In this document: positions 807-13,381 of the stretch, piece after piece
How positions within the stretch are numbered: position 1 is the first letter of the stretch
Layout of the letters: every line of letters starts with the position of its first letter
NCBI GenBank assembly: GCA_016283935.1
Contig: JAEENX010000005.1
Location: forward strand, 1 to 35,999
Direction: 5' to 3'
DNA from: Bacilli bacterium
GTDB lineage: Bacteria > Bacillota_I > Bacilli_A > RF39 > UBA660
DNA: 35,999 nt
Position numbers and translations under genes: made by a program
Notes under the pieces: generated by a model
The model's database searches: none
Told to the model about the DNA's origin: nothing
Seen by the model: only the letters and a program-made list of their open reading frames with translations

Positions 807-838
807 ATAAAAAAAGTGGTATTAAAGTCCACTTTTTC
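807..838 (-). terminator. Intrinsic terminator after the 322-aa gene
   Basis: Read on the minus strand, arms at 829-837 and 811-819 (AAAAAGTGG/CCACTTTTT) enclose a 9-nt loop and are followed by a T-rich run. The TAA stop of the gene ending at 822 lies in the loop. The next gene's -10-like TGTTATTAT begins shortly after. Confidence 0.8.
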
Positions 839-1790
839 TTACTATATATCCTTGAGATTCTGCTAATTCTTGAGATTCTTCATCTCCTTTAAATCTTTCA
901 AAATCTTCTTTAGTTAAAAATTCTTCATCATGTCCTTCAACATCACGATAAACATCATTTGTTTCTTGAATCATATCCACAGCTGGTTCATTCATAGCCA
1001 TTTCTTCCATGGATTCAGCATATTTTTTATATTTATCTTCCATGTTTTTAGATATCATTATTGTTATATAACCAACTATCTTTTCATCTCTTAAATACAT
1101 ACCTGTATCAGGATCGTGTTTAAAGTTATTCTTTTTATCTTTTTTTATAGTTAAATTATCATATAATCTATTTATTAAATAATCTAAATCTAATCTATCT
1201 AGATCATATTCATATTTTTCTTCTCCTACTTCATTTGCATGTCTTACTTCATTATATACACCATCCATAAGAGTGAAAATATAATTATTGCCATTTGCTA
1301 TTTCATTTCTATGTTCTTTAAATCTCTCAATAACAATTCTTGGAGAAAAGTTCTTTTTATCTTCTTCTGTATAAAAATTACTTAAATCGCCTATTGAAGA
1401 CTTACTGAATATTGAAGCCATATATAATTGAGAAAATAAATCAATATCAAATTTATTATCTCTAAAGTATTGCTTTTGAATATTTGGATCTAATAATGAT
1501 TTAGATAAAGAATAACAAATATGATCAAGTCCTAATGGTATTCTATAAGGATAATTAGGATTTTTAGTTTCAGCTAAATATACAATTCTTGAAGAATAAG
1601 GAATATCACAATTAGTTGGGCCATTCTTAATAGCAGTTCTTAATTGCATTTCATTATCAAATAAAGTTGTATATTCTATTAAATCAGTTAATGAATCTCC
1701 TATTAGTCGTAAATTATTATCTAAGATTGATAATGGTTTAAAAACGCCATTTGATTCATAACCTAAATAAAATTTAGTTTTTCTACCCAT
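822..1790 (-). CDS. Hypothetical protein, 322 aa
   Basis: I do not recognise this protein. It is soluble-looking, with no signal peptide or membrane segment. It is rich in charged residues, with a strongly acidic C-terminal third (about residues 255-310) containing many Glu and Asp. Internal hallmarks include GYESNGVFKPL near the N-terminus and a Tyr/Asp-rich stretch around residues 190-215. The start at 1790 has AAAGGGG eight bases upstream, and a good promoter (1817-1845) lies just ahead. The gene ends inside its own terminator. It is a separate transcription unit between the cadherin-like membrane protein and the M16-like gene. Its codon use resembles its neighbours. The open frame and signals make it a real gene; no function is claimed. 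Confidence 0.8.
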   Translation of the reverse strand: MGRKTKFYLGYESNGVFKPLSILDNNLRLIGDSLTDLIEYTTLFDNEMQLRTAIKNGPTNCDIPYSSRIVYLAETKNPNYPYRIPLGLDHICYSLSKSLLDPNIQKQYFRDNKFDIDLFSQLYMASIFSKSSIGDLSNFYTEEDKKNFSPRIVIERFKEHRNEIANGNNYIFTLMDGVYNEVRHANEVGEEKYEYDLDRLDLDYLINRLYDNLTIKKDKKNNFKHDPDTGMYLRDEKIVGYITIMISKNMEDKYKKYAESMEEMAMNEPAVDMIQETNDVYRDVEGHDEEFLTKEDFERFKGDEESQELAESQGYIVRKSGL

Positions 1791-1816
1791 ATTGTATTCC
1801 CCTTTAATTGAAAACT

Positions 1817-1845
1817 ATTATATATCAAGCATATAACATAATCAA
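1817..1845 (-). promoter_or_regulatory. Sigma-A type promoter for the 322-aa gene
   Basis: On the minus strand TTGATT (1840-1845) and TATAAT (1817-1822) are separated by exactly 17 bases. It overlaps the space immediately after the TAG stop of the gene ending at 1853. Confidence 0.75.
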
Positions 1846-1852
1846 GAAATAA

Positions 1853-3286
1853 CTAATTTTGATTATTAGGATTTTGTTGTACTGGAGGTACAACTTGTTG
1901 AGTTGGTTGAACCGGTTGTGTTGGAGCTACAGGTTGAACTGGAGCAACTGGTACACTTTGTTGTGGCACGACTTGTTGTACTGGTTGTGCTTGTACAGGT
2001 TGTTGTACTGGATTAACTGGTTGAGCAACTTGAGGTTGAACCGGTTGTACTGGAGTAACTTGTGTTACTGGTTGTTGAACAGTAGTAAGTTGTTCCTTCT
2101 TTTTCTTTCCAAATAACTTAGTGAATTTAGCCATATCTTTTTCTACTTCACTATTACGCTTGTTAGATGACTTAACAATAAAGACAATTACAATCAATAA
2201 GATAGTAACAATTATACCTAAATAGATATATGAAGAATAATCTTTTTCTTCTCTTTCTTTTATAACTAATATAGAATATGTTTCTTTAGTTGTTTTATCT
2301 TTTGATGTAACAGTTATTGTAATTGTACTTTTATTTTTTAGGTCTTCATTTCCTTCAATAACAAATGTTGCATCCTTAACATTTACTATTGGTTCTATAT
2401 CAAGTTGATTTACTACTGAATCAACTTTGATTGTATATTGTTTAATAATTGATTCGAAATTAATTGGATAATTTCTAATTGTAAGCTTCTTAAGTGTAGC
2501 ATCCTTTTCAGGATAATAAATTGCTTCACCTCTAGGCAATCTATTAATTTCTAATGTATAACATGTTTGACTAGTTAAGTCAGGACTTGTTACATATACA
2601 TCAATTACATTTGTACCAACTTCTAATTTAGTATTACCTTCAATTCTAACATCTGCACCTTCAACATTTGGTTCATATTGAAAATTTATTTCATCTACTT
2701 CAAATAATACATCAAATTTATATTGAGTAATAAATTTTGAAAAAGTAAAATATTTATCCAAATTTTCATCGCTTAACTTCTTTAATAAAGAATTACCATT
2801 TGATGTATCTCTTGGTTTACCATCTGTAGTAGTAATTTGAGATGTATCTACATATTTTTTTACTTTTATAGGATTACTACGTAATATCTCAGGATCAGAT
2901 GTATAATCTGATGCATCTGTATATTTGACATTTTTTAATACGAATTCAGTATTAACTAAATCTTCAGTTGTTTTAGTTTTAACCTTACATTTAAAATCTA
3001 CATAAGAGATTGTACCTTCTCCTGTAGGTGTTCCACTTGTTCTAACGTTTTCCATATTAGTTTGGAATCCATCAGCATATCCAGCTATAGTACAACTTAA
3101 ATAATCGTTTGATTCTATTGAAGCAGATAACTCTTTGTATGTTACATTTGCTTCTCCAGTTAAACTACATTTAAATTCATCACCATATTCATATTCTCCA
3201 TCTATACAAGAAAGAGATAATGCATATGTTTTTACTGGAAAAATAATAATTAAAGTTACAATTAATAAATAAAAATATTTTTTCAT
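1853..3286 (-). CDS. Membrane-anchored protein with cadherin-like beta-sandwich domains and Pro/Gln/Val-rich tail
   Basis: A signal peptide (MKKYFYLLIVTLIIIFPVKTYA) leads an extracellular region. Its second half carries two cadherin-like beta-sandwich repeats (PF12733 pattern) at roughly residues 185-250 and 262-342. Both show the A-x-V/F-x-I-E-G-N core followed by I-x-V and a Tyr-rich closing strand ending near R or K. A single transmembrane helix (YLGIIVTILLIVIVFIV, about 353-370) follows. The cytoplasmic tail has a basic stretch and about 75 residues made almost only of Pro, Gln and Val. The short repeats there (QPV, VQP) explain the antisense open frame on the plus strand. A cell-surface structural or adhesion role is inferred. 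The gene lies downstream of the gatB terminator, so it is probably its own unit; I saw no clear promoter. TAG stop. Confidence 0.75.
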   Translation of the reverse strand: MKKYFYLLIVTLIIIFPVKTYALSLSCIDGEYEYGDEFKCSLTGEANVTYKELSASIESNDYLSCTIAGYADGFQTNMENVRTSGTPTGEGTISYVDFKCKVKTKTTEDLVNTEFVLKNVKYTDASDYTSDPEILRSNPIKVKKYVDTSQITTTDGKPRDTSNGNSLLKKLSDENLDKYFTFSKFITQYKFDVLFEVDEINFQYEPNVEGADVRIEGNTKLEVGTNVIDVYVTSPDLTSQTCYTLEINRLPRGEAIYYPEKDATLKKLTIRNYPINFESIIKQYTIKVDSVVNQLDIEPIVNVKDATFVIEGNEDLKNKSTITITVTSKDKTTKETYSILVIKEREEKDYSSYIYLGIIVTILLIVIVFIVKSSNKRNSEVEKDMAKFTKLFGKKKKEQLTTVQQPVTQVTPVQPVQPQVAQPVNPVQQPVQAQPVQQVVPQQSVPVAPVQPVAPTQPVQPTQQVVPPVQQNPNNQN

Positions 3287-3347: not shown

Positions 3348-3382
3348 ATTAAAAAAGTAAGAGATTTGACTATCTCTTACTT
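3348..3382 (-). terminator. Intrinsic terminator of the hisS-gatB operon
   Basis: An 11-bp perfect hairpin on the minus strand (3372-3382 with 3355-3365, AAGTAAGAGAT) with a 6-nt loop is followed by TTTTTT. The gatB TAG stop (3370-3372) straddles the stem and loop. Confidence 0.9.
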
Positions 3383-4818
3383 AATTCATCTTGTAATATT
3401 TGGTTAACTTTACCAGGGTTTGCTTGGCCTTTTGTAGCTTGCATTACTTGTCCTACAAAGTAACCAATAATATTAGTTCTACCACCTTTATAATCAGCTA
3501 TTTGTGCTTCACTTCTATTTAATATTTCAGTAACAATTTTAATTAATTCTGAATCATCAGATAATTGTTTCATTCCTTCAGCTTCCATGATCTTTTCAGG
3601 TTCTTCTTCTCTTTCAAGGGTTAAAGCAAATAATTCTTTACCTTGTTTAGAAGAAATTCTTCCGTCTTTAATAGCTGAAGTTATTTGAGCTAATCTTTCA
3701 GGTGTTAAATATATTTCATCTATTTCTTTTTCTTCTTTATAGCAATATCCTAATATTTGTGTACAAATCCAGTTAGCTGCTGTTTTAGCATCTACTCCTA
3801 ATTCAACACATTTTTCAAAATATGTAGCTATCTTAATATCTTTGATAATAATAGTAGCATCATATGCAGATAAACCTAAATCATTCATGTATTTAGCTTT
3901 TCTTTCATATGGTAGTTCTGGTGTAGAAGCAATAATTTCATCTACCCATGCTCTATCTAATTTAATTTTAGGAATATTTGGTTCAACAAAATACTTATAG
4001 TCGATTGCATCAACTTTAGATCTCATTGCTTTAGTAGTTTGAGATTCTTCATCCCATCTTCTTGTTTCTTGAACTACTTCTTCATCATATCTTCCTTCAT
4101 CTTTAAGATCACATTGTCTTTCAATTTCATAATTAATTGCATCTCTTACAGATGAGAATGAGTTAACATTCTTAATTTCTACTTTAGTTCCTAAAGAATT
4201 AGGATCTTCTGAAATAGAAACGTTAACGTCACATCTTAAATGACCTTTTTTAGAATCAGCTTCAGATATACCACAGTATTGATATACAGCTCTCATATAT
4301 TCAAGGAATGTTACAGCATCATCAGCTGAATGAAGACATGGTCCAGTTACAAGTTCGAATAATGGATTTCCTGCTCTATTATAATTGATTGTTGAAGTAT
4401 CATAAAGGTGTGTTAATTGAGCAGCATCTTCTTCTAAGTGAAGATTGTCTATTTCAACTCTAAATACTGATCCATCTTCTCTTTCAATATCAATATAACC
4501 ACCATTTCCAACACATTCTTCTGGTGGGTTTTGAGTTATTTGATATCCTTTTGGTAAATCTGGATAATAATAATTCTTTCTTTCCCAATACATATATTCA
4601 GGAATTCTAGCATGTAAGATATTAGCCATCATAATAGACATTCTTACACATTCTTTATTAGCTACTGGAAGAACTCCAGGGAATCCCATATCAATTGGAG
4701 TTACATTACAGTTTGGTAATTCAGTATATTCATTTTTTGAAGGTGAAAATACTTTAGAATTAGTTAATGAACCTTCACAGTGCATTTCTAAACCTATTGT
4801 TGCATAATATTTACTCAT
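3370..4818 (-). CDS. gatB: Aspartyl/glutamyl-tRNA amidotransferase subunit B
   Basis: GatB binds misacylated Asp-tRNA(Asn) or Glu-tRNA(Gln) and activates the acyl group with ATP. The amide is then made with ammonia delivered from GatA. The sequence opens YYATIGLEMHCE, matching the family's IGLEVH signature. It carries the GIDL-like GFPGVLPVANK region, the KGYQITQ motif and the EIKNVNSF motif. At 482 aa it has the usual full length. The last about 150 residues are the helical tail plus YqeY-like tRNA-binding domain, with the typical NIIGYFVGQVM ending. It is the last gene of the operon, one base after gatA, with a strong AAGGAGG site eight bases before ATG. Identification is firm. Whether it serves Asn, Gln or both depends on the AspRS2 in the same operon and on any GlnRS elsewhere. 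Confidence 0.97.
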   Translation of the reverse strand: MSKYYATIGLEMHCEGSLTNSKVFSPSKNEYTELPNCNVTPIDMGFPGVLPVANKECVRMSIMMANILHARIPEYMYWERKNYYYPDLPKGYQITQNPPEECVGNGGYIDIEREDGSVFRVEIDNLHLEEDAAQLTHLYDTSTINYNRAGNPLFELVTGPCLHSADDAVTFLEYMRAVYQYCGISEADSKKGHLRCDVNVSISEDPNSLGTKVEIKNVNSFSSVRDAINYEIERQCDLKDEGRYDEEVVQETRRWDEESQTTKAMRSKVDAIDYKYFVEPNIPKIKLDRAWVDEIIASTPELPYERKAKYMNDLGLSAYDATIIIKDIKIATYFEKCVELGVDAKTAANWICTQILGYCYKEEKEIDEIYLTPERLAQITSAIKDGRISSKQGKELFALTLEREEEPEKIMEAEGMKQLSDDSELIKIVTEILNRSEAQIADYKGGRTNIIGYFVGQVMQATKGQANPGKVNQILQDELSKR

Positions 4819-4819
4819 A

Positions 4820-6271
4820 TTACTTTACCTCCTTAGCTATTTGATTCTTATATTCCATAGATGATTCTAAGGCATAAGCAATATTTAATATATTTTGGTC
4901 ATCATAACAGTTACCTGTAATATTTATACCAACTGGTAATCCATCAACAAATCCATTTGGAATTGTAATTGATGGGAAACCACCAAAGTTACCAATTTGT
5001 AAGTGTTCATCTAGTACAGTTAATTCATCATCAGATACCATATCATGATTATCTAATTTAGTAGCTGGACCAGTTCCTACTGGAAGAATTAATCCATCGT
5101 ATTTCTTAAATTGTTCTTTAATAGTATCAACAATTAATCTTCTAGCTCTTTGAGCATTCTTAAAATATTTATCTTGGTTAACAGCTTGCAATACATATGA
5201 ACCAATTACAAATCTTCTTTTAATTAATGAACTAAATCCTTTAGTTCTATGATCTTTCATTTGTTCTTTATATGTAGAACCTTCTCCACGAGGTCCAAAT
5301 GAGAAACCAGTTAAGTTAGACATATTAGATGTTGCTTCAGCACATGAAATTACAACATATGTAGAAGCTATTGCATTTAATAAATCTTGATTAATTGATA
5401 CTTCTTCTACTTCAATACCTAATTCTTTAACTTTATCAATTGTCTTCATGAAGTTATCTAAATGTTCTTCAGTTTCTTTAGGTAAATTCTTATAATTATT
5501 TTTATCAACTATTTCTTTAATATAGAATAATTTCTTTCCTTTAACATCTTTAGATAAATCTTTGTATAAATTAATATTTGATGAATCCCAAGAAGTCATA
5601 TCTTTAGGATCTTTACCTTTCATAGCATCTACTACAATAGCAGCATCTTCAACTGATCTAGTTAAAACACCACATGTATCTAATGAAGATGCAAAAGCGA
5701 ATAATCCATATCTTGAAATCATTCCATATGTTGGTTTATATCCTACAATACCACAGAAAGCAGCAGGTTTTCTAATTGAGTCTCCTGTATCTGATCCTGT
5801 AGCAAATGGATAAACACCAGCAGCAACTGCAGCAGCAGATCCTGATGATGAACCAGCACACATTCTTGTTGTATCCCAAGGATTCTTTTGTACTCCAGTA
5901 TGTCCTGTTGTACCAGTTCCACCCATACCAAATTCATCCATTGCAGTTTTATTAACTGGAACACATCCGTGTTTAGACAAATTTTCTATAGCTGTAGCTG
6001 TAAAAAATGGTACATAGTCTTTTAATGTATTAGATGATCCTGTAGATAATATTCCTTTAGTAGAATAGTTATCTTTAATACCATATGGAATACCTGATAA
6101 TAAGTCATCAGTTACTTCAGAGCCTTTAGCATCATCTAAAATAGTAACAAATGCATTACATTTTTCTTGTACTTCATGTGATTTCTTAATTGATTCTTTT
6201 ACTAATTCATCAGATGTTACTTTACCTGATTTTAATTCTTCATGTAATTCTACAATAGTCTTATCCATCAT
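4820..6271 (-). CDS. gatA: Aspartyl/glutamyl-tRNA amidotransferase subunit A
   Basis: GatA is the amidase-family subunit that hydrolyses glutamine and channels ammonia to GatB. The Ser-cisSer-Lys triad is visible: Lys in YGIKDNY (about residue 66), cis-Ser in CAGSSSGSAAAVAA, and nucleophile Ser in GSDTGDSIRKPAAFCG. Length (483 aa) is normal. The residue just before the nucleophile is Asp, where most bacterial GatA proteins I know have Gly (TGGSIR). The Arg after Ser-Ile is kept, so activity is still expected. Two tandem ATG codons start the gene; the AAAGGTGGTGG ribosome site lies within the end of gatC, one base away. Translation is therefore probably coupled to gatC. Identification is firm. 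Confidence 0.97.
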   Translation of the reverse strand: MMDKTIVELHEELKSGKVTSDELVKESIKKSHEVQEKCNAFVTILDDAKGSEVTDDLLSGIPYGIKDNYSTKGILSTGSSNTLKDYVPFFTATAIENLSKHGCVPVNKTAMDEFGMGGTGTTGHTGVQKNPWDTTRMCAGSSSGSAAAVAAGVYPFATGSDTGDSIRKPAAFCGIVGYKPTYGMISRYGLFAFASSLDTCGVLTRSVEDAAIVVDAMKGKDPKDMTSWDSSNINLYKDLSKDVKGKKLFYIKEIVDKNNYKNLPKETEEHLDNFMKTIDKVKELGIEVEEVSINQDLLNAIASTYVVISCAEATSNMSNLTGFSFGPRGEGSTYKEQMKDHRTKGFSSLIKRRFVIGSYVLQAVNQDKYFKNAQRARRLIVDTIKEQFKKYDGLILPVGTGPATKLDNHDMVSDDELTVLDEHLQIGNFGGFPSITIPNGFVDGLPVGINITGNCYDDQNILNIAYALESSMEYKNQIAKEVK

Positions 6272-6272
6272 C

Positions 6273-6566
6273 TTAATCCACCACCTTTGGTACTTCTACT
6301 TCTCTATCATCTGTGAAATCACAGTTTGATAATAATTCTTCAATTGAAGGTGATTCAATAGCAACATCTTCTCTTAATTCACATTCAAAATCATCTAATG
6401 CATGTGTCATAGGTTGTGCTTTTTCAATTCCTTCAATTTTATTAATTTTATTGATATTTTTATCAATAACTTCAAATTCATCTAATACCATCTTATTTTC
6501 TTCAGGAGTTAAACCAATCATTAATAGATCAGCTAATTTATCTATTGTTGCTTCATTAAAATCCAT
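6273..6566 (-). CDS. gatC: Aspartyl/glutamyl-tRNA amidotransferase subunit C
   Basis: GatC is the small subunit that wraps around GatA and holds it to GatB. The 97-aa product has the standard layout: an N-terminal helix pair (TIDKLADLLMIGLTPEE), the central I-D-K-N-I-N-K-I helix, then the extended QPMTHALDDFECELRED segment and a C-terminal acidic tail ending EVPKVVD. It follows aspS2 by one base; its ribosome site (AAGGAGG) lies in the last codons of aspS2. The order gatC-gatA-gatB is the classic Bacillota arrangement. Confidence 0.95.
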   Translation of the reverse strand: MDFNEATIDKLADLLMIGLTPEENKMVLDEFEVIDKNINKINKIEGIEKAQPMTHALDDFECELREDVAIESPSIEELLSNCDFTDDREVEVPKVVD

Positions 6567-6567
6567 A

Positions 6568-8313
6568 TTATTTTTCCTCCTTAATTTTTAATCCTAATTC
6601 TTTTAATTGTTCAGGTGTTAAATATGAAGGTGAACCCATCATTAGGTCAGCACCTGATGCTGAAGTTGGGAATGCTTGAACTTCTCTAAGGTTTGGTTCA
6701 TCTTGTATAAGCATTAAGATTCTATCAATACCAGGAGCCATTCCACCATGTGGAGGACATCCATATTTAAATGCTGTAAATATTGATTTGAATCTCTTTT
6801 CAACTTCTTCTCTTTCATAGCCAACTGTTTCAAAACCTTTAGCTAAACTTTCTAAGTCATGGTTTCTAATAGCACCTGATGCCATTTCGTTACCATTACA
6901 TACAAAGTCATATTGATATGCTAAAATGTTTTCTTTATCTTCTCTATCATATGCAGAAATACCTCCATGAGGTAAGCTGAATGGGTTATGACAGAAATCC
7001 CATTTCTTTTCATCATCTTTCCATTCAAACATTGGGAAATCATTTACTATACATAGTTCTAATTTGTTGTGATCAATTAAACCACATTTCTCTCCAATAT
7101 AGTTTCTTATTTCTCCTGCAAATTTTTGAGCTATTTTTAATTTTCTATTTGCTATAAAGAACATAACTGAGTTTGTCTTCATATCAAATTTTTCAATTAA
7201 TTCTTTTCTTTCTTCTTCAGATAAGAATTTATCTATAGGTCCTTTAAATGTTCCGTCTTCCATTAAAGTGATATAACCAATTCCTGGCATACCAATTGAT
7301 GTAGCAAAATCAACAATATCATTGAACCATGAGTTTGAGTTTTCACCTATTCCATCAACTACAATAACTTTAATATTTGATTTTTTAAATGGACCAAATT
7401 CAGTATTCTTTAATGCTTCAGTAGCATCTTTGATTATCAATGGGTTTCTTAAATCAGGTTTATCTGATCCATAATCTTCCATTGCATCTTTATATGCTAT
7501 TCTTCTAAATGGAGGTTTAGATACTTCTTTATTACTAAATTTAGTAAATACATCATAGAAGATTTCTTCACCTACTTTTAAAACATCTTCTTCATTTACA
7601 AAAGACATTTCTAAATCTAATTGATAAAACTCTAATGTTCTATCTGCTCTTGCGTCTTCATCTCTGAAGCATGGAGCTATTTGAAAATATTTAGAAAAAC
7701 CACCAACCATTAATAATTCTTTATATATTTGTGGTGCTTGTGGTAATGCATAGAATTTACCTTTAAATATTCTTGAAGGTACAACAAAATCTCTTGCTCC
7801 TTCTGGTGAAGATGCAGTAAGAATTGGAGTTTGTACTTCAGTAAATCCTAAATCATACATTTTGTTTCTTAAGAAATGAAGAACTTCAGATCTTAATTTA
7901 ATATTTTCTTTAACTCTTTCATTTCTTAAGTCTAAATATCTATATTTTAATCTAATATCATCTTTAGTATTTCTAGATGTCATGATTTCAAATGGTAATT
8001 CATGTTCTGATTCAGCTAATACTTCCATCTTAGATACTAATAATTCAATATCACCTGTAGATAATCTTTCATTATATGTATCTTCAGATCTCTTTCTAAT
8101 TGTACCAGTTAATTCAACAACTGATTCTTTTGCTAATCCTTTAAACATATTATCATCATTTGAAACCGTTTGTAGTGTTCCTGATTCATCTCTAAGGTCT
8201 AAAAACAAAACACCACCGTGATCTCTTATGTTTTCAACCCAACCTGATACTATAACAGTGTCTTTAATATCAGAAGATAGGTCTTTAATCATATGAGTTC
8301 TATACTTGTTCAT
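6568..8313 (-). CDS. aspS2: Aspartyl-tRNA synthetase 2, predicted non-discriminating
   Basis: Class II bacterial-type AspRS, 581 aa. It has an N-terminal OB-fold anticodon-binding domain (about 1-105) and a catalytic core with motif 2 (CFRDEDARADRTLEFYQLD). A GAD insertion domain and motif 3 (GGMAPGIDRILML) follow. In the OB fold it reads RDHGG (His about residue 32), the position equivalent to His31 of the Pseudomonas aeruginosa non-discriminating enzyme. The neighbouring paralogue in this operon has Leu there, as in discriminating enzymes. The second determinant, usually Gly near residue 83 in non-discriminating enzymes, is Asp here, so the evidence is not complete. The prediction is that it charges both tRNA(Asp) and tRNA(Asn), feeding GatCAB directly downstream. 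I chose ATG 8311-8313: AAAGGG lies 10 bases before it, but only 2 bases before the GTG at 8322. Confidence 0.93.
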   Translation of the reverse strand: MNKYRTHMIKDLSSDIKDTVIVSGWVENIRDHGGVLFLDLRDESGTLQTVSNDDNMFKGLAKESVVELTGTIRKRSEDTYNERLSTGDIELLVSKMEVLAESEHELPFEIMTSRNTKDDIRLKYRYLDLRNERVKENIKLRSEVLHFLRNKMYDLGFTEVQTPILTASSPEGARDFVVPSRIFKGKFYALPQAPQIYKELLMVGGFSKYFQIAPCFRDEDARADRTLEFYQLDLEMSFVNEEDVLKVGEEIFYDVFTKFSNKEVSKPPFRRIAYKDAMEDYGSDKPDLRNPLIIKDATEALKNTEFGPFKKSNIKVIVVDGIGENSNSWFNDIVDFATSIGMPGIGYITLMEDGTFKGPIDKFLSEEERKELIEKFDMKTNSVMFFIANRKLKIAQKFAGEIRNYIGEKCGLIDHNKLELCIVNDFPMFEWKDDEKKWDFCHNPFSLPHGGISAYDREDKENILAYQYDFVCNGNEMASGAIRNHDLESLAKGFETVGYEREEVEKRFKSIFTAFKYGCPPHGGMAPGIDRILMLIQDEPNLREVQAFPTSASGADLMMGSPSYLTPEQLKELGLKIKEEK

Positions 8314-8344
8314 ATTAAACACACCCTTTCTTTATTTTTAAATT

Positions 8345-9712
8345 CTAGTATTCACAGTTTCCTGGAGTTCTTGGATAAGGAATAACATCTCTAATATTTT
8401 CAATACCTGTTAGGTACATGATTAATCTTTCAAATCCCATTCCGAATCCTGAATGATAACATCCACCAAATTTTCTTAAGTTTAGATACCATTCAATTTG
8501 TTCTCTATCAATATTATGAATTTTAACTAATTCATTTAATTTGTCTAAATCAACTTCTCTTTCAGATCCACCCATTAATTCACCTGAACCTGGTACTTCT
8601 AGGTCAACAGCAGCAACTGTTTTACCATCATCATTAAGTTTCATATACCAAGCCTTAATATCTTTAGGCCAATTATAAATGAATACTGGTGAATTAAAGT
8701 GTTCAGTAATCCATTTCTCATGTTCTTTAGCAATATCTGATTCATAGTCAGGAGTAAATTCCCATTTTTCTCCTGAATTTAATAATAAATCAATAGCTTC
8801 TTTATGAGTAATCTTAACGAAATCAGATGAAACTAATTTATTAAGCTTATCTAATAATCCTTTAGATACCCATTGATCTAACATAGCTAATTCATCAGCA
8901 CATTTTTCAAGTACTTGATTAACTACGAACTTTAACATTTCTTCTTCTACATTCATTAAGTCATCTAAATGCATGAATGCCATTTCTGGTTCAATCATCC
9001 AGAACTCATTTGCATGAGTCTTAGTATTTGAATTTTCAGTTCTGAATGTAGGACCAAATGTATATATTTTCTTAAATGCCATAGCATATGTTTCACCATG
9101 AAGTTGTCCTGATCCAGTTATAAATGTTTGTTTTCCAAATAAATCTTTAGAATAATCAACTTCTCCATCTACTTTAGGAACATTATTTAAATCTAAAGTT
9201 GTTACTTTAAACATTTGATCTGATCCTTCACAGTCTGCTGTAGTTAATAATGGTGTATGTACATATACATAATTATTATTTTGAAAATATTCATGTATTG
9301 CTTGTGCAGCTACACTTCTTATTTTAAATACAGCTTGGAATGTTCTTGTTCTTGGTCTTAAGTAAGCTTGACTTCTTAAAAATTCCATTGTATGTCTTTT
9401 TGGTTGAATTGGATAATCAGCAGGACAATCACCTATAACTTCAATTTTTGAAGGTTTAACTTCATATTTTTGTTTTCCTGGCGACTCAACCAATTCACCT
9501 TCAACACTTATTGCTGAACCAACTAATATCTTAGCTACTTCATCAAAATTAGATAAATTTTTATCATATACAATTTGTAATGTATTAATTGAAGTACCAT
9601 CATAGAAATCAATAAAACCGAATTCTTTTTGGTCACGATTATTTCTAACCCATCCTTCAAGTTTAACTACATCACCTATGTTTTTAGTTTTAAATACATC
9701 TACTAAGTCCAT
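8345..9712 (-). CDS. asnS: Asparaginyl-tRNA synthetase
   Basis: AsnRS attaches asparagine directly to tRNA(Asn). The 455-aa protein has an N-terminal OB fold (LEGWVRNNRDQKEFGFIDFYDG) and the AsnRS-type core with FGPTFRTENSNTKTHANEFW and MIEPEMAF. It ends with motif 3 GFGMGFERLIMYLTGIENIRD and the characteristic terminus YPRTPGNCEY, which separates AsnRS from AspRS. Its ATG overlaps the TAA of the upstream aspS by one base (TAATG), a classic coupled junction. AsnRS together with a non-discriminating AspRS and GatCAB gives two parallel routes to Asn-tRNA(Asn) on one transcript. TAG stop. Confidence 0.96.
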   Translation of the reverse strand: MDLVDVFKTKNIGDVVKLEGWVRNNRDQKEFGFIDFYDGTSINTLQIVYDKNLSNFDEVAKILVGSAISVEGELVESPGKQKYEVKPSKIEVIGDCPADYPIQPKRHTMEFLRSQAYLRPRTRTFQAVFKIRSVAAQAIHEYFQNNNYVYVHTPLLTTADCEGSDQMFKVTTLDLNNVPKVDGEVDYSKDLFGKQTFITGSGQLHGETYAMAFKKIYTFGPTFRTENSNTKTHANEFWMIEPEMAFMHLDDLMNVEEEMLKFVVNQVLEKCADELAMLDQWVSKGLLDKLNKLVSSDFVKITHKEAIDLLLNSGEKWEFTPDYESDIAKEHEKWITEHFNSPVFIYNWPKDIKAWYMKLNDDGKTVAAVDLEVPGSGELMGGSEREVDLDKLNELVKIHNIDREQIEWYLNLRKFGGCYHSGFGMGFERLIMYLTGIENIRDVIPYPRTPGNCEY

Positions 9713-11475
9713 TATTTATCCTCTTCTTTTATATCAAATTTAATATTTAATTCTCTTAATTGCTCTTTAGTTAATTCTGAAGGTGAACCCATCATTAGGT
9801 CTTGACCTGATGCACTTGGTGGGAATGCTTGTACTTCTCTAAGGTTAGGTTCATCTTTAATTAACATAAGAATTCTATCTAAACCTGGAGCCATTCCACC
9901 ATGTGGAGGACAACCATATTTAAATGCTGTAAAGATTGATTTAAATCTTTGTTCAACTTCTTCTCTAGGATATCCAACGATTTCAAATCCTTTAGCTAAA
10001 GAATCTAAATCATGGTTTCTAATAGCACCTGATGCCATTTCATTACCATTACAAACAAAGTCAAATTGGTAAGCTAAAATACTTTCTAAATCATCAGTAT
10101 TATCATATGCATGAATACCTCCATGAGGTAAACTAAATGGATTATGACAGAAATCCCATTTTTCGTTATTTTCATCCCATTCAAACATTGGGAAGTCATT
10201 AACGATACATAATTCTAATCTATCTTTATCAATCATATCTAAGTCATTAGCAACTCTTAATCTTAATTGTCCTAATGCGTTTTTAACGATATGTCTTTCA
10301 CCTGAAATAATTAATACTAAATCATTATTTTCAAGTTCTAATACTTTCTTTAATTCATTTACTTCTGCTTCAGTTACAACTTTAGCAATTGAACCAGTAA
10401 TTTCATTATCAATCTTTAAGTAAGCTAAACCAGATGCTTTTTTACCTTTTACAAATTCAGTTAATTCATCTAATTGTTTTCTTGAATATTTATCAGCTGC
10501 ATTTTTAGCAACGATTGCATTAATAATACCTTTTTCTTCAATTATATTTTTAAATATAGTAAATTCAGTATTTTTAAATACATCAGTTATATCTTTGATT
10601 GTCATATCAAATCTTAAATCTGGTTTATCTGAACCATACATATTAATTGCATCATTATATGCAATTCTTCTGAATGGTCTTGGTGATACTTTCTTATCAC
10701 TGAATGTAGAGAATACATCATAGAAGATTTCTTCACCTACAGCTAATACATCATCTTCTTCAACAAATGACATTTCTAAGTCTAATTGGTAGAACTCTAA
10801 TGTTCTATCTGCTCTTGGATCTTCATCTCTGAAACATGGAGCAACTTGGAAATATTTACCTAAACCACCAACCATTAATAATTCTTTATAAATTTGTGGT
10901 GCTTGTGGTAAAGCGTAGAATTTACCTGGAAATAATCTTGAAGGTACAACAAAGTCTCTTGCTCCTTCTGGTGAAGATGCAGTTAAGATCGGAGTTTGTA
11001 CTTCAGTAAATCCTAAATCATACATTTTGTTTCTTAAGAAATGTAATACTTCAGATCTTAAATGTAAGTTATCTTTTAATTTATTTCTTCTAATATCTAA
11101 ATATCTATATTTTAATCTATTATCATCAGAAGTATTTACTTCATCAGCAATTGGGAATGGTAATTCTTCACATGTATTTAAAATAGTAAGTTCTTCTACT
11201 TCTATTTCAACATCACCTGTTTTTAAATTAGGATTCTTTGCTGATCTTTCTACTACTTTACCAGTTACTTCAATTACATATTCTGATTTTAATGAATCAG
11301 CTATTTTATAATTTTTATTATCAGGATTTACTACTAATTGGATAATTGTTGATTCATCTCTTAAATCAATAAATATTAATCCACCTAAGTCTCTTTTCTT
11401 AGCAACCCATCCTGCTAAAGTAACAGTTTTACCTACTGATTTAATATCAATTGTTTCATTCATTACTTTTTTCAT
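9712..11475 (-). CDS. aspS: Aspartyl-tRNA synthetase 1, predicted discriminating
   Basis: Full-length bacterial AspRS (587 aa): OB-fold anticodon domain, motif 2 (CFRDEDPRADRTLEFYQLD), GAD domain, and motif 3 (GGMAPGLDRILML). The OB fold has RDLGG with Leu at residue 30, matching the Leu of discriminating enzymes such as E. coli (Leu30). An Asn stands in the loop where E. coli has Asn82 (AKNPNLKTG). It should therefore be specific for tRNA(Asp). Its catalytic core has long blocks nearly identical to AspRS2 downstream, also at the DNA level, while the anticodon domains differ clearly; this suggests duplication with later gene conversion. It starts 11 bases after hisS, with AAGGAAG before the ATG. 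The hisS-aspS order is common in Bacillota. Confidence 0.96.
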   Translation of the reverse strand: MKKVMNETIDIKSVGKTVTLAGWVAKKRDLGGLIFIDLRDESTIIQLVVNPDNKNYKIADSLKSEYVIEVTGKVVERSAKNPNLKTGDVEIEVEELTILNTCEELPFPIADEVNTSDDNRLKYRYLDIRRNKLKDNLHLRSEVLHFLRNKMYDLGFTEVQTPILTASSPEGARDFVVPSRLFPGKFYALPQAPQIYKELLMVGGLGKYFQVAPCFRDEDPRADRTLEFYQLDLEMSFVEEDDVLAVGEEIFYDVFSTFSDKKVSPRPFRRIAYNDAINMYGSDKPDLRFDMTIKDITDVFKNTEFTIFKNIIEEKGIINAIVAKNAADKYSRKQLDELTEFVKGKKASGLAYLKIDNEITGSIAKVVTEAEVNELKKVLELENNDLVLIISGERHIVKNALGQLRLRVANDLDMIDKDRLELCIVNDFPMFEWDENNEKWDFCHNPFSLPHGGIHAYDNTDDLESILAYQFDFVCNGNEMASGAIRNHDLDSLAKGFEIVGYPREEVEQRFKSIFTAFKYGCPPHGGMAPGLDRILMLIKDEPNLREVQAFPPSASGQDLMMGSPSELTKEQLRELNIKFDIKEEDK

Positions 11476-11486
11476 AAAGCACTTCC

Positions 11487-12737
11487 TTACATATGCATGT
11501 CAATATAATCTACTAAATCATTAATATTAACACGTTCTTCTTCTTTTGTTTTATTATCTTTTAATACTACTTCATTCTTTTGTAGATCTTCATCATTTAA
11601 TACGATTAAATATTTAGCATCAAATCTATCAACTGATTTAAATTGAGCTTTTAATGATTTATTCATTAAATCAGTTTCAACTATAAATCCATTTAATCTT
11701 AAATTTTGAGCTAAATAACATGCTGTTTCTTTTTCTGAATCAGATACAGCTAATAAATAAACATCTACTGAATTATTAATTGGAATATTAACATTTTCTT
11801 CTTCCATAGCTAAGATTGTTCTATCATATCCCATTGCAAATCCTACACCAGGAACTGATGGACCACCTAAAGTTTCAACTAAACCATTGTAACGTCCACC
11901 TCCACCTAAAGCATATGAATCTCTTAATGTTACTTCAAATACTGTGTGGTTGTAATAGTCTAATCCTCTTACTAGTTTAGTATTAACATCATATGGAATA
12001 TCCATTAAATCCAATAATTCTTGTAATCTTTCAAATCTCTTCTTAGATTCTTCATTTAAATAATCAATTGTTTTAGGAGCATTTGCAAGAATTTCTGATC
12101 CTGCATCAACCTTACAATCTAATATTCTTAATGGATTCTTTTTAAATCTTTCTTGGCAATCTTCACATAATTCATTAATATGTGGTTCAAAATATTTAAC
12201 TAAAGCTTCTCTATAGTTATTTCTTGATTCTGTATCTCCTAATGAGTTTAATTGAATCTTAACATCTTCTAATCCTAATAAACGATATGCATTGTATGCT
12301 AAAGAAATTACTTCAGCATCTGCTTCACATGTATCAGATCCAAATACTTCAAATCCCCATTGAGTAAATTCTCTATTTCTTCCTGATTGAGGTCTTTCAT
12401 ATCTATACATCTTCATGTTGTAATAAACTTTAACTGGATCAGTTAAATTACCATATAGTTTATTTTCAACAAACCATCTTACTACTCCTGCAGTTCCTTC
12501 TGGTCTTAAAGTAATATTTCTTTCCCCACGGTCAACAAAATCATAAGTTTCTTTTTGAACCATATCGGTTGTTTCTCCAACACCTCTATGGAATAATTCA
12601 GAAGCTTCAAATACTGGTGTTTCAATATAGCCAAAATTATATTTTTCACATAATGCATTTAATACATCATTAACATACATTCTTTTCTTTGCTAAGTCTC
12701 CATATATATCATATGTTCCTTTTTGTTTAGTAATCAT
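11487..12737 (-). CDS. hisS: Histidyl-tRNA synthetase
   Basis: Class II HisRS of 416 aa. Signatures: KQKGTYDIYG at the N-terminus, motif 2 region MYRYERPQSGRNREFTQWG, the HisA motif LVRGLDYYNHTVFEV, HisB ALGGGGRYNGL, and the C-terminal anticodon-binding domain. The start is the ATG at 12735-12737, with GGAG eight bases upstream. The frame stays open upstream to 12812, but that stretch is the T-box antiterminator/terminator RNA and is not coding. First gene of the seven-gene charging operon. Although hisS is first, the T-box features do not fit tRNA(His) (see the leader entry). TAA stop. Confidence 0.97.
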   Translation of the reverse strand: MITKQKGTYDIYGDLAKKRMYVNDVLNALCEKYNFGYIETPVFEASELFHRGVGETTDMVQKETYDFVDRGERNITLRPEGTAGVVRWFVENKLYGNLTDPVKVYYNMKMYRYERPQSGRNREFTQWGFEVFGSDTCEADAEVISLAYNAYRLLGLEDVKIQLNSLGDTESRNNYREALVKYFEPHINELCEDCQERFKKNPLRILDCKVDAGSEILANAPKTIDYLNEESKKRFERLQELLDLMDIPYDVNTKLVRGLDYYNHTVFEVTLRDSYALGGGGRYNGLVETLGGPSVPGVGFAMGYDRTILAMEEENVNIPINNSVDVYLLAVSDSEKETACYLAQNLRLNGFIVETDLMNKSLKAQFKSVDRFDAKYLIVLNDEDLQKNEVVLKDNKTKEEERVNINDLVDYIDMHM

Positions 12738-12965
12738 ACTAACATCTCCTTTTCTAAAATTAAAAAAGTACCTAACAAACGTAAGGACGAGGAATAAATC
12801 CCGCGGTGCCACCTTACTTCACATAGGTACTCTCATTTGTATATATCGCATACTTGCGTTTTGTGTTATAAAGAGTTGTTGTCAAATAATACGTATTAGG
12901 CATTTCCACCATCTAGCCTTCTCTTTAATACTTAATTATAAGGTCGATTCTCTTCCACAAAAGTT
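12738..12965 (-). promoter_or_regulatory. T-box leader RNA of the hisS-gatB operon, probably tRNA(Asp/Asn)-sensing
   Basis: Minus strand, 5' to 3': a stem I base UUUUGUG/CACAAAA (about 12862-12960), an AGAGAAGGC/GGUGGAAAUGCC distal region, and a specifier-side strand GACAACAAC (12883-12875). Then come a small CGCA/UGCG stem III and the canonical T-box AAGGUGGCACCGCGG (12815-12801). The terminator pairs AGUACCUA...GUAAGG with CCUUAC...UAGGUACU (12831-12767) before UUUUUU. The T-box tetranucleotide is UGGC, so the uncharged tRNA should have discriminator base G73. Bacterial tRNA(Asp) and tRNA(Asn) have G73; tRNA(His) has C73. Candidate specifier codons are GAC (Asp) and AAC (Asn); no His codon is in that strand. 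Exact stem I pairing is by eye. Confidence 0.93.
12761..12831 (-). terminator. T-box-controlled terminator
   Basis: An 8-bp outer stem (12824-12831 with 12767-12774) and a 6-bp inner stem (12812-12817 with 12781-12786) are followed by a run of six T, 13 bases before the hisS ribosome site. The T-box sequence is sequestered between the arms, so terminator and antiterminator are mutually exclusive. Confidence 0.9.
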
Positions 12966-12971
12966 ATCAAA

Positions 12972-13012: not shown

Positions 13013-13381
13013 CTATTTACGTAGTATAGGACCACCTATTGAATAATAATTATTATTAACTAATTTTGAGTAGTCTTTATATCCGTTTACATAAGACATA
13101 ATCTCAATTAATTCTTTATTATTTTTTAATTTTCCACATTTCTTAAATGTTCCTTCAGTTATATGAGTAACATCTATATGAACATCTAATTTAACATTTG
13201 GTTTCTTATCTAATAATACTTTTTCAGTTCTTAGATGATATATTCCTGAATTAGGTTTCTTAATACCTACATCAGGTGTAATTGTTAAATATTTGATAAA
13301 ATTAACATCTGCATATATTACTAATCCTAGTTTTATTTCTGTATTAGTAGATAAATCAATTATATCGCCTGGTGTATACAT
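13013..13381 (-). CDS. Hypothetical protein, 122 aa
   Basis: Unrecognised small soluble protein. It begins MYTPGDIIDLSTNTEIKLG, has beta-strand-like stretches (LGLVIYADVNFIKYLTITPD), and ends in a Tyr/Asn-rich tail with GGPILRK. The opening GDII pattern faintly recalls MazF/PemK-fold toxins, but none of their catalytic residues can be identified, so I do not assign it. There is a GAGAGGGG ribosome site before the ATG and a good promoter upstream (13414-13442). No terminator is seen between its TAG stop and the hisS promoter, so read-through into the T-box leader is possible. Stand-alone unit between topA and the charging operon. Confidence 0.75.
   Translation of the reverse strand: MYTPGDIIDLSTNTEIKLGLVIYADVNFIKYLTITPDVGIKKPNSGIYHLRTEKVLLDKKPNVKLDVHIDVTHITEGTFKKCGKLKNNKELIEIMSYVNGYKDYSKLVNNNYYSIGGPILRK

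Follow-up and report, generated by a model that had tools for sequence, protein, structure and literature searches.

The T-box leader upstream of hisS

Which transfer RNA (tRNA) is sensed by a T-box leader whose first downstream gene is hisS? The question is raised by a 35,999-nucleotide stretch of DNA from a gut or rumen bacterium of the Bacilli, referred to here as the window, in which such a leader heads the genes hisS, aspS1, asnS, aspS2, gatC, gatA and gatB, in that order. The leader belongs to a known kind, the transcriptional T-boxes; its specificity is unusual and liable to change. Judging from the sequence and its relatives, it is probably an Asn T-box, with AAC at 12880-12878 as the specifier. 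The specificity of this leader appears to be Asp in most relatives and Asn here, and to have changed several times between the two.

A previous inspection of the window from its letters alone (the sequence-only reading) suggested that the whole operon, including hisS, is controlled by Asp and Asn charging. The part of this that holds is that a tRNA of the Asp/Asn type is predicted, and not tRNA-His; the codon in register, however, is most likely that of Asn.

The leader matches the Rfam T-box family RF00230 at 12967-12780 on the minus strand (cmscan), over model positions 1-219 of 219, with 55.3 bits and an E-value of 1.6e-11. This falls short of the Rfam gathering score (93), and so do 8 of this genome's 12 T-box matches, but that score is a curation threshold and not a defining trait of a T-box. 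Against RF00230, hisS leaders from the other families in this class score 95-137 bits. A covariance model made from relatives matches the window leader with 30.2 bits, and also matches most near relatives. The elements of the leader are as follows.

13000-12972, minus strand: promoter, TTGACA-17-TATAAT, 12 of 12 positions of the sigma-70 consensus
12780-12967, minus strand: T-box leader, RF00230 at full model length (cmscan)
12956-12962, minus strand: stem I outer helix, 5' strand UUUUGUG, pairing with CACAAAA (RNAfold; counterpart in relatives)
12950-12955, minus strand: helix below the specifier loop, 5' strand GAAGAG, pairing with CUCUUU (RNAfold)
12898-12924, minus strand: distal arm of stem I (AGAGA ... 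GGC-loop-GCC with GGUG), a motif conserved in relatives
12881-12883, minus strand: upstream GAC, at the place of the S-turn GAA of canonical relatives (by comparison)
12878-12880, minus strand: probable specifier AAC (Asn), followed by A-A (register from relatives)
12870-12875, minus strand: helix below the specifier loop, 3' strand CUCUUU (RNAfold)
12859-12865, minus strand: stem I outer helix, 3' strand CACAAAA (RNAfold)
12808-12811, minus strand: T-box tetranucleotide UGGC, pairing with G73-CCA (sequence)
12762-12834, minus strand: terminator hairpin and U tract, overlapping the antiterminator (-26.2 kcal/mol, z -2.98)

In both the RF00230 alignment and our own fold, stem I has a base helix, a specifier loop on top of it, and a distal arm. 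The equivalent of the helix below the specifier loop covaries among 24 canonical relatives, and in the consensus fold of the 24 canonical leaders changes on both sides are seen for 17 of 17 pairs. The UGGC can pair with the GCCA ends of both tRNA-Asn and tRNA-Asp, and a competing terminator is followed by hisS and six further genes. Direct reading of the minus strand confirms the two motifs on which the sequence-only reading was built, namely UGGC at 12811-12808 and GAC-AAC-AAC at 12883-12875, the latter containing no CAC or CAU.

The specifier codon

The HisS search covered 193 genomes of the family, from which flanking regions were retrieved, plus 41 named loci, nearly all of them from metagenome-assembled genomes of gut and rumen Bacilli. 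In most relatives hisS is preceded by a T-box, with UGGC in almost all, so the observation in the window is not a matter of chance. Registers were set by hand, because looking for the specifier by an automatic helix search gave too much noise in AT-rich sequence. MAFFT alone misaligned the loop, and a covariance model was therefore used.

A codon was assigned in register in 66 of 67 distinct family leaders: it is GAC or GAU in 41 and AAC in 25, and in none of them is it CAC or CAU. The canonical specifier loop of distant relatives (24 leaders) has AGUA on one side, and on the other GAA, the specifier GAC and a single A, followed by the stem. In the lineage of the window, AAC is usual in the slot that holds GAC in canonical leaders. 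For L144 and L145 (GAU-AAC-A) the covariance model aligns AAC with the GAC columns, and GAU with those of the S-turn GAA. The loop strand of L137 and L139 has shrunk, leaving little unpaired beyond AACA(A). A single base, at the first specifier position, separates L134 and L136 (GGU-AAC-AA) from L135 (GGU-GAC-AA).

By this comparison, the AAC of the window lies in the specifier slot, adjoining the base helix of stem I on its 3' strand, and in the predicted fold each of its bases is unpaired at 0.96 or above. The spacer from codon to helix is A-A, as against the single A of canonical leaders; AAC-AA-C is also present in eight AAC leaders of different lineages (L077, L080, L083, L106, L125, L139, L152 and L155). 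Relative L133, whose HisS is 96% identical, retains the specifier strand, the T-box and the operon. The rule used by TBDB considers three frames within the last 5 nt of the bulge, and requires a match to discriminator and downstream gene (PMC7778990). Applied to the window, it passes only AAC: ACA would need tRNA-Thr and CAA tRNA-Gln, both of which have A73 in this genome.

UGGC occurs only in the hisS leader among the 12 T-box matches of the 1.29 Mb genome, the others having UGGU. The genome's own tRNAs bear out the expectation of G73 in tRNA-Asp and tRNA-Asn and C73 in tRNA-His; G73 is otherwise found only in Ser(TGA) and Trp (the Trp and His discriminators were read by eye past one trailing base). 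The sequence-only reading used UGGC as an argument against His. The mismatch with C73 is real, but UGGC alone is insufficient to exclude His, because the TBDB authors leave the discriminator unused for His T-boxes (PMC7778990). The absence of a His codon is the stronger argument.

Three T-boxes of the same genome (L001, L008 and L011) have similar 3' parts (GGAUGGUACCGUGCA). UGGU is also found together with a GAC specifier, in L092, L095, L128, L156, L157, L163-L165 and many leaders of other families; these imply a U-G73 wobble if the local tRNA-Asp has G73.

Codon switching within the family

In genomes from other families of the class, hisS T-boxes read GAC in 24 of 24 cases. Asp control of hisS is therefore old and general in the class, and is not the special feature that the sequence-only reading had made of it. 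Within the family, every AAC leader with operon data (23 of 23) heads an operon with asnS and/or gatCAB, while hisS-aspS operons without asnS or gatCAB have an Asp codon in 26 of 26. The hisS tree calls for 7 or more changes of the codon, and for 2 or more of the operon content. The association between codon and operon has a Fisher probability of 1.6e-9, computed ignoring relatedness. Pairs that differ in both codon and operon all do so in the expected direction, and are too few for a test.

Alternative explanations

Several points weigh against an Asn specifier in the window. The specifiers were assigned manually, from sequence and helix. Generic models (Rfam and R1) set ACA in the specifier columns, because the extra A has no room in them. 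Eight operons with gatCAB read GAC, so that operon content does not dictate the codon; and with relatedness counted the association is non-significant, in an independent-pairs test with too few pairs for power. In the covariance-model check proposed in the sequence-only reading, the Rfam model gives ACA, the relatives' model gives AAC in L144 and L145, and no His codon appears. The Rfam register ACA (Thr) was rejected for two reasons: the A73 of tRNA-Thr does not match UGGC, and leaders with a single-A spacer do not preserve ACA.

The sequence-only reading had also suggested a two-codon T-box, in which adjacent GAC (12883-12881) and AAC (12880-12878) would sense uncharged tRNA-Asp and tRNA-Asn. 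We consider this improbable, although tRNA-Asp and tRNA-Asn share G73, GAC is followed by a purine, and the operon makes Asp-tRNA and Asn-tRNA alike. GAY-AAC is present in 8 of the 25 AAC leaders, both GAC and GAU being Asp codons, but the other 17 have GUU, GGU, AAA, AAG, UUG, CAG or AAU as the upstream triplet, and this variability means that an Asp codon is not maintained there. The Clostridium acetobutylicum T-box offered as a precedent pairs Asn with Glu, not Asp with Asn (PMC4052509). Two-codon T-boxes of that type have overlapping codons, whereas GAC and AAC are adjacent; GAC aligns with the S-turn GAA, falls outside the 5-nt specifier zone of TBDB, and its full-codon offset would shift the elbow contact. 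The G of GAC is also predicted to pair with a C (0.47 in the window, 0.93 in the near-identical L133). In the nearest clades of the window the upstream triplet has the pattern G-N-Y, and in most of them this G is predicted to be paired to a C of the opposite strand. Since the second position is free, where Asp would need A, a structural role of the G is favoured over a second specifier.

It is very unlikely that GAC alone is the specifier, in what would still be an Asp T-box with an enlarged loop. GAC is the class-wide (the 24 of 24 noted above) and presumed ancestral specifier of hisS leaders, and a GAA-like stretch is near in the generic model, but GAC would then sit five bases from the helix rather than one, and there are relatives that share the AAC-AA-C strand and have no GAC. 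Sensing of tRNA-His, alone or with tRNA-Asp through alternative structures, can be given hardly any credence for this leader. According to a published suggestion, repeated in PMC4342826, leaders of hisS-aspS respond to tRNA-His as well as tRNA-Asp, and another paper names the Staphylococcus aureus hisS-aspS element a histidine T-box. The canonical GACAC does contain an overlapping CAC, and 23 of 26 hisS-aspS leaders contain an overlapping CAY (L081 and L097 read by eye). This need not mean anything, because A and then a pyrimidine after the codon is the general T-box consensus. The window strand, GACAACAACUC, has neither CAC nor CAU in the specifier loop, and C73 of tRNA-His is opposed to UGGC, though for His this carries little weight. 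A decaying or non-functional T-box might be suspected from the score under the Rfam gathering cut-off, yet this is most implausible: promoter, stem I, UGGC, antiterminator and terminator are all intact, and L133 has kept the same strand, T-box and operon.

Proposed mechanism

Returning to an Asn T-box, we infer binding, antitermination and the direction of evolution from the leader anatomy, the comparative register, the tRNA features and the operon content. On accumulating, uncharged tRNA-Asn (anticodon GUU, G73) would pair through its anticodon with AAC in stem I, and through its GCCA end with UGGC, thus stabilising the antiterminator. RNA polymerase would then read into hisS-aspS1-asnS-aspS2-gatCAB. 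When tRNA-Asn is charged, the terminator would stay. On this scheme hisS and the Asp genes would be carried along under Asn control. The ancestral leader would have read tRNA-Asp (GAC), with the specifier moving to Asn where the operon has asnS and/or gatCAB.

Content of the operon

The genes behind the leader are listed here from hisS onwards.

11487-12737, minus strand: hisS (TIGR00442, 470.8 bits)
9712-11475, minus strand: aspS1, bacterial-type aspartyl-tRNA synthetase (AspRS) with a GAD domain and the motif KKRDLGG (profile match)
8345-9712, minus strand: asnS (TIGR00457, 553.4 bits)
6568-8322, minus strand: aspS2, second bacterial-type AspRS, motif NIRDHGG (profile match)
6273-6566, minus strand: gatC (TIGR00135 with 46 bits, just under the cut-off; over the Pfam cut-off)
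4820-6271, minus strand: gatA (TIGR00132 with 434 bits, under the cut-off of 481.1; Pfam Amidase over the cut-off)
3370-4818, minus strand: gatB (over the cut-off)

No glutaminyl-tRNA synthetase over the cut-off was found in the genome, which makes GatCAB necessary for Gln-tRNA at the least. The genome has both asnS and an asnB-type gene. The two AspRS differ at a position (DLGG in aspS1, DHGG in aspS2) that we take to separate discriminating from non-discriminating bacterial AspRS. GatCAB and aspS2 may be candidates for making Asn on tRNA-Asn; the DHGG/DLGG split fits this, and the first base pair of the tRNA does not. Bacterial GatCAB is stated to need U1-A72 (PMC4206432), and the tRNA-Asn here has G1-C72, at odds with that rule.

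G1-C72 is also present in the tRNA-Asn loci L249, L255, L257, L261 and L263 (genomes G368, G106, G094, G099 and G089, respectively), all from genomes without asnS over the cut-off. Such genomes may have a GatCAB with another recognition rule, or their assemblies may be incomplete and lack asnS for that reason. In several relatives an AspRS of archaeal length replaces aspS1. In L091 and L094 gatCAB follows directly after hisS, with no aspS, and in L078 hisS stands without aspS; no T-box motif was found upstream of hisS in any of the three. Open reading frames of 322, 477 and 122 residues flank the operon (window positions 822-3286 and 13013-13381). None has an NCBIfam match, and only that of 477 residues has a Pfam match, to a cadherin-like domain.

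Other T-boxes and wider significance

T-boxes with an ultrashort stem I were seen before tyrS (L010, at G000:C8:9933-10051, L224 and L227) and before hisS (L085 and L120). Their stem I is a few base pairs long and is capped by a loop of about 8 nt, which holds UAC in the tyrS leaders and GAC in the hisS leaders. Stem II and the distal arm that binds the elbow are both missing, yet UGGN is there, and a terminator as well in L010, where this was checked. The short stem I elements for which Sherwood 2015 is cited are said to be actinobacterial and translational, whereas those found here look transcriptional and occur in Bacilli. A short stem I with an apical specifier has been described (PMC7583486, citing Sherwood 2015).

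Clean cases of altered tRNA specificity among orthologous T-box leaders are rare. Here, one position of the leader has switched between GAC and AAC seven times or more in one family, and by a single base in one trio of near relatives. The shared G73 and the wobble-free NNC codons may ease such a change. These leaders would form a natural series for testing what stem I, the T-box base and the tRNA elbow each contribute to specificity. They also call for caution in inferring specificity from the first downstream gene, as the hisS leaders of the class appear not to be His sensors.

Comparison with known systems

The two-codon T-box of C. acetobutylicum was reportedly presented by Saad et al. in 2013. 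It belongs to a transamidation operon and resembles the window in that a T-box with an Asn codon controls genes of the aspS/gatCAB type, in a bacterium that has redundant Asn-tRNA genes (PMC4052509). The extra triplet of the window differs in being GAC, a full codon upstream, and not conserved. The lysK T-box of Bacillus cereus (PMC2916919) is likewise the leader of an aminoacyl-tRNA synthetase gene that responds in part to uncharged tRNA-Asn; its cognate tRNA is that for Lys, and it responds to tRNA-Asn through promiscuous recognition within a mixed codon box.

That hisS and aspS can share one T-box has already been published (PMC4342826). The hisS-aspS T-box of Bacilli (Bacillus methanolicus, PMC4342826; S. 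aureus, PMC7927825) resembles the present one in having a single leader before hisS and then aspS, and in its transcriptional control and gene order at the start of the operon. There the published suggestion is one of His and Asp sensing, whereas the window has no overlapping His codon. In the window, asnS, a second aspS and gatCAB follow, and AAC takes the place of GAC in register.
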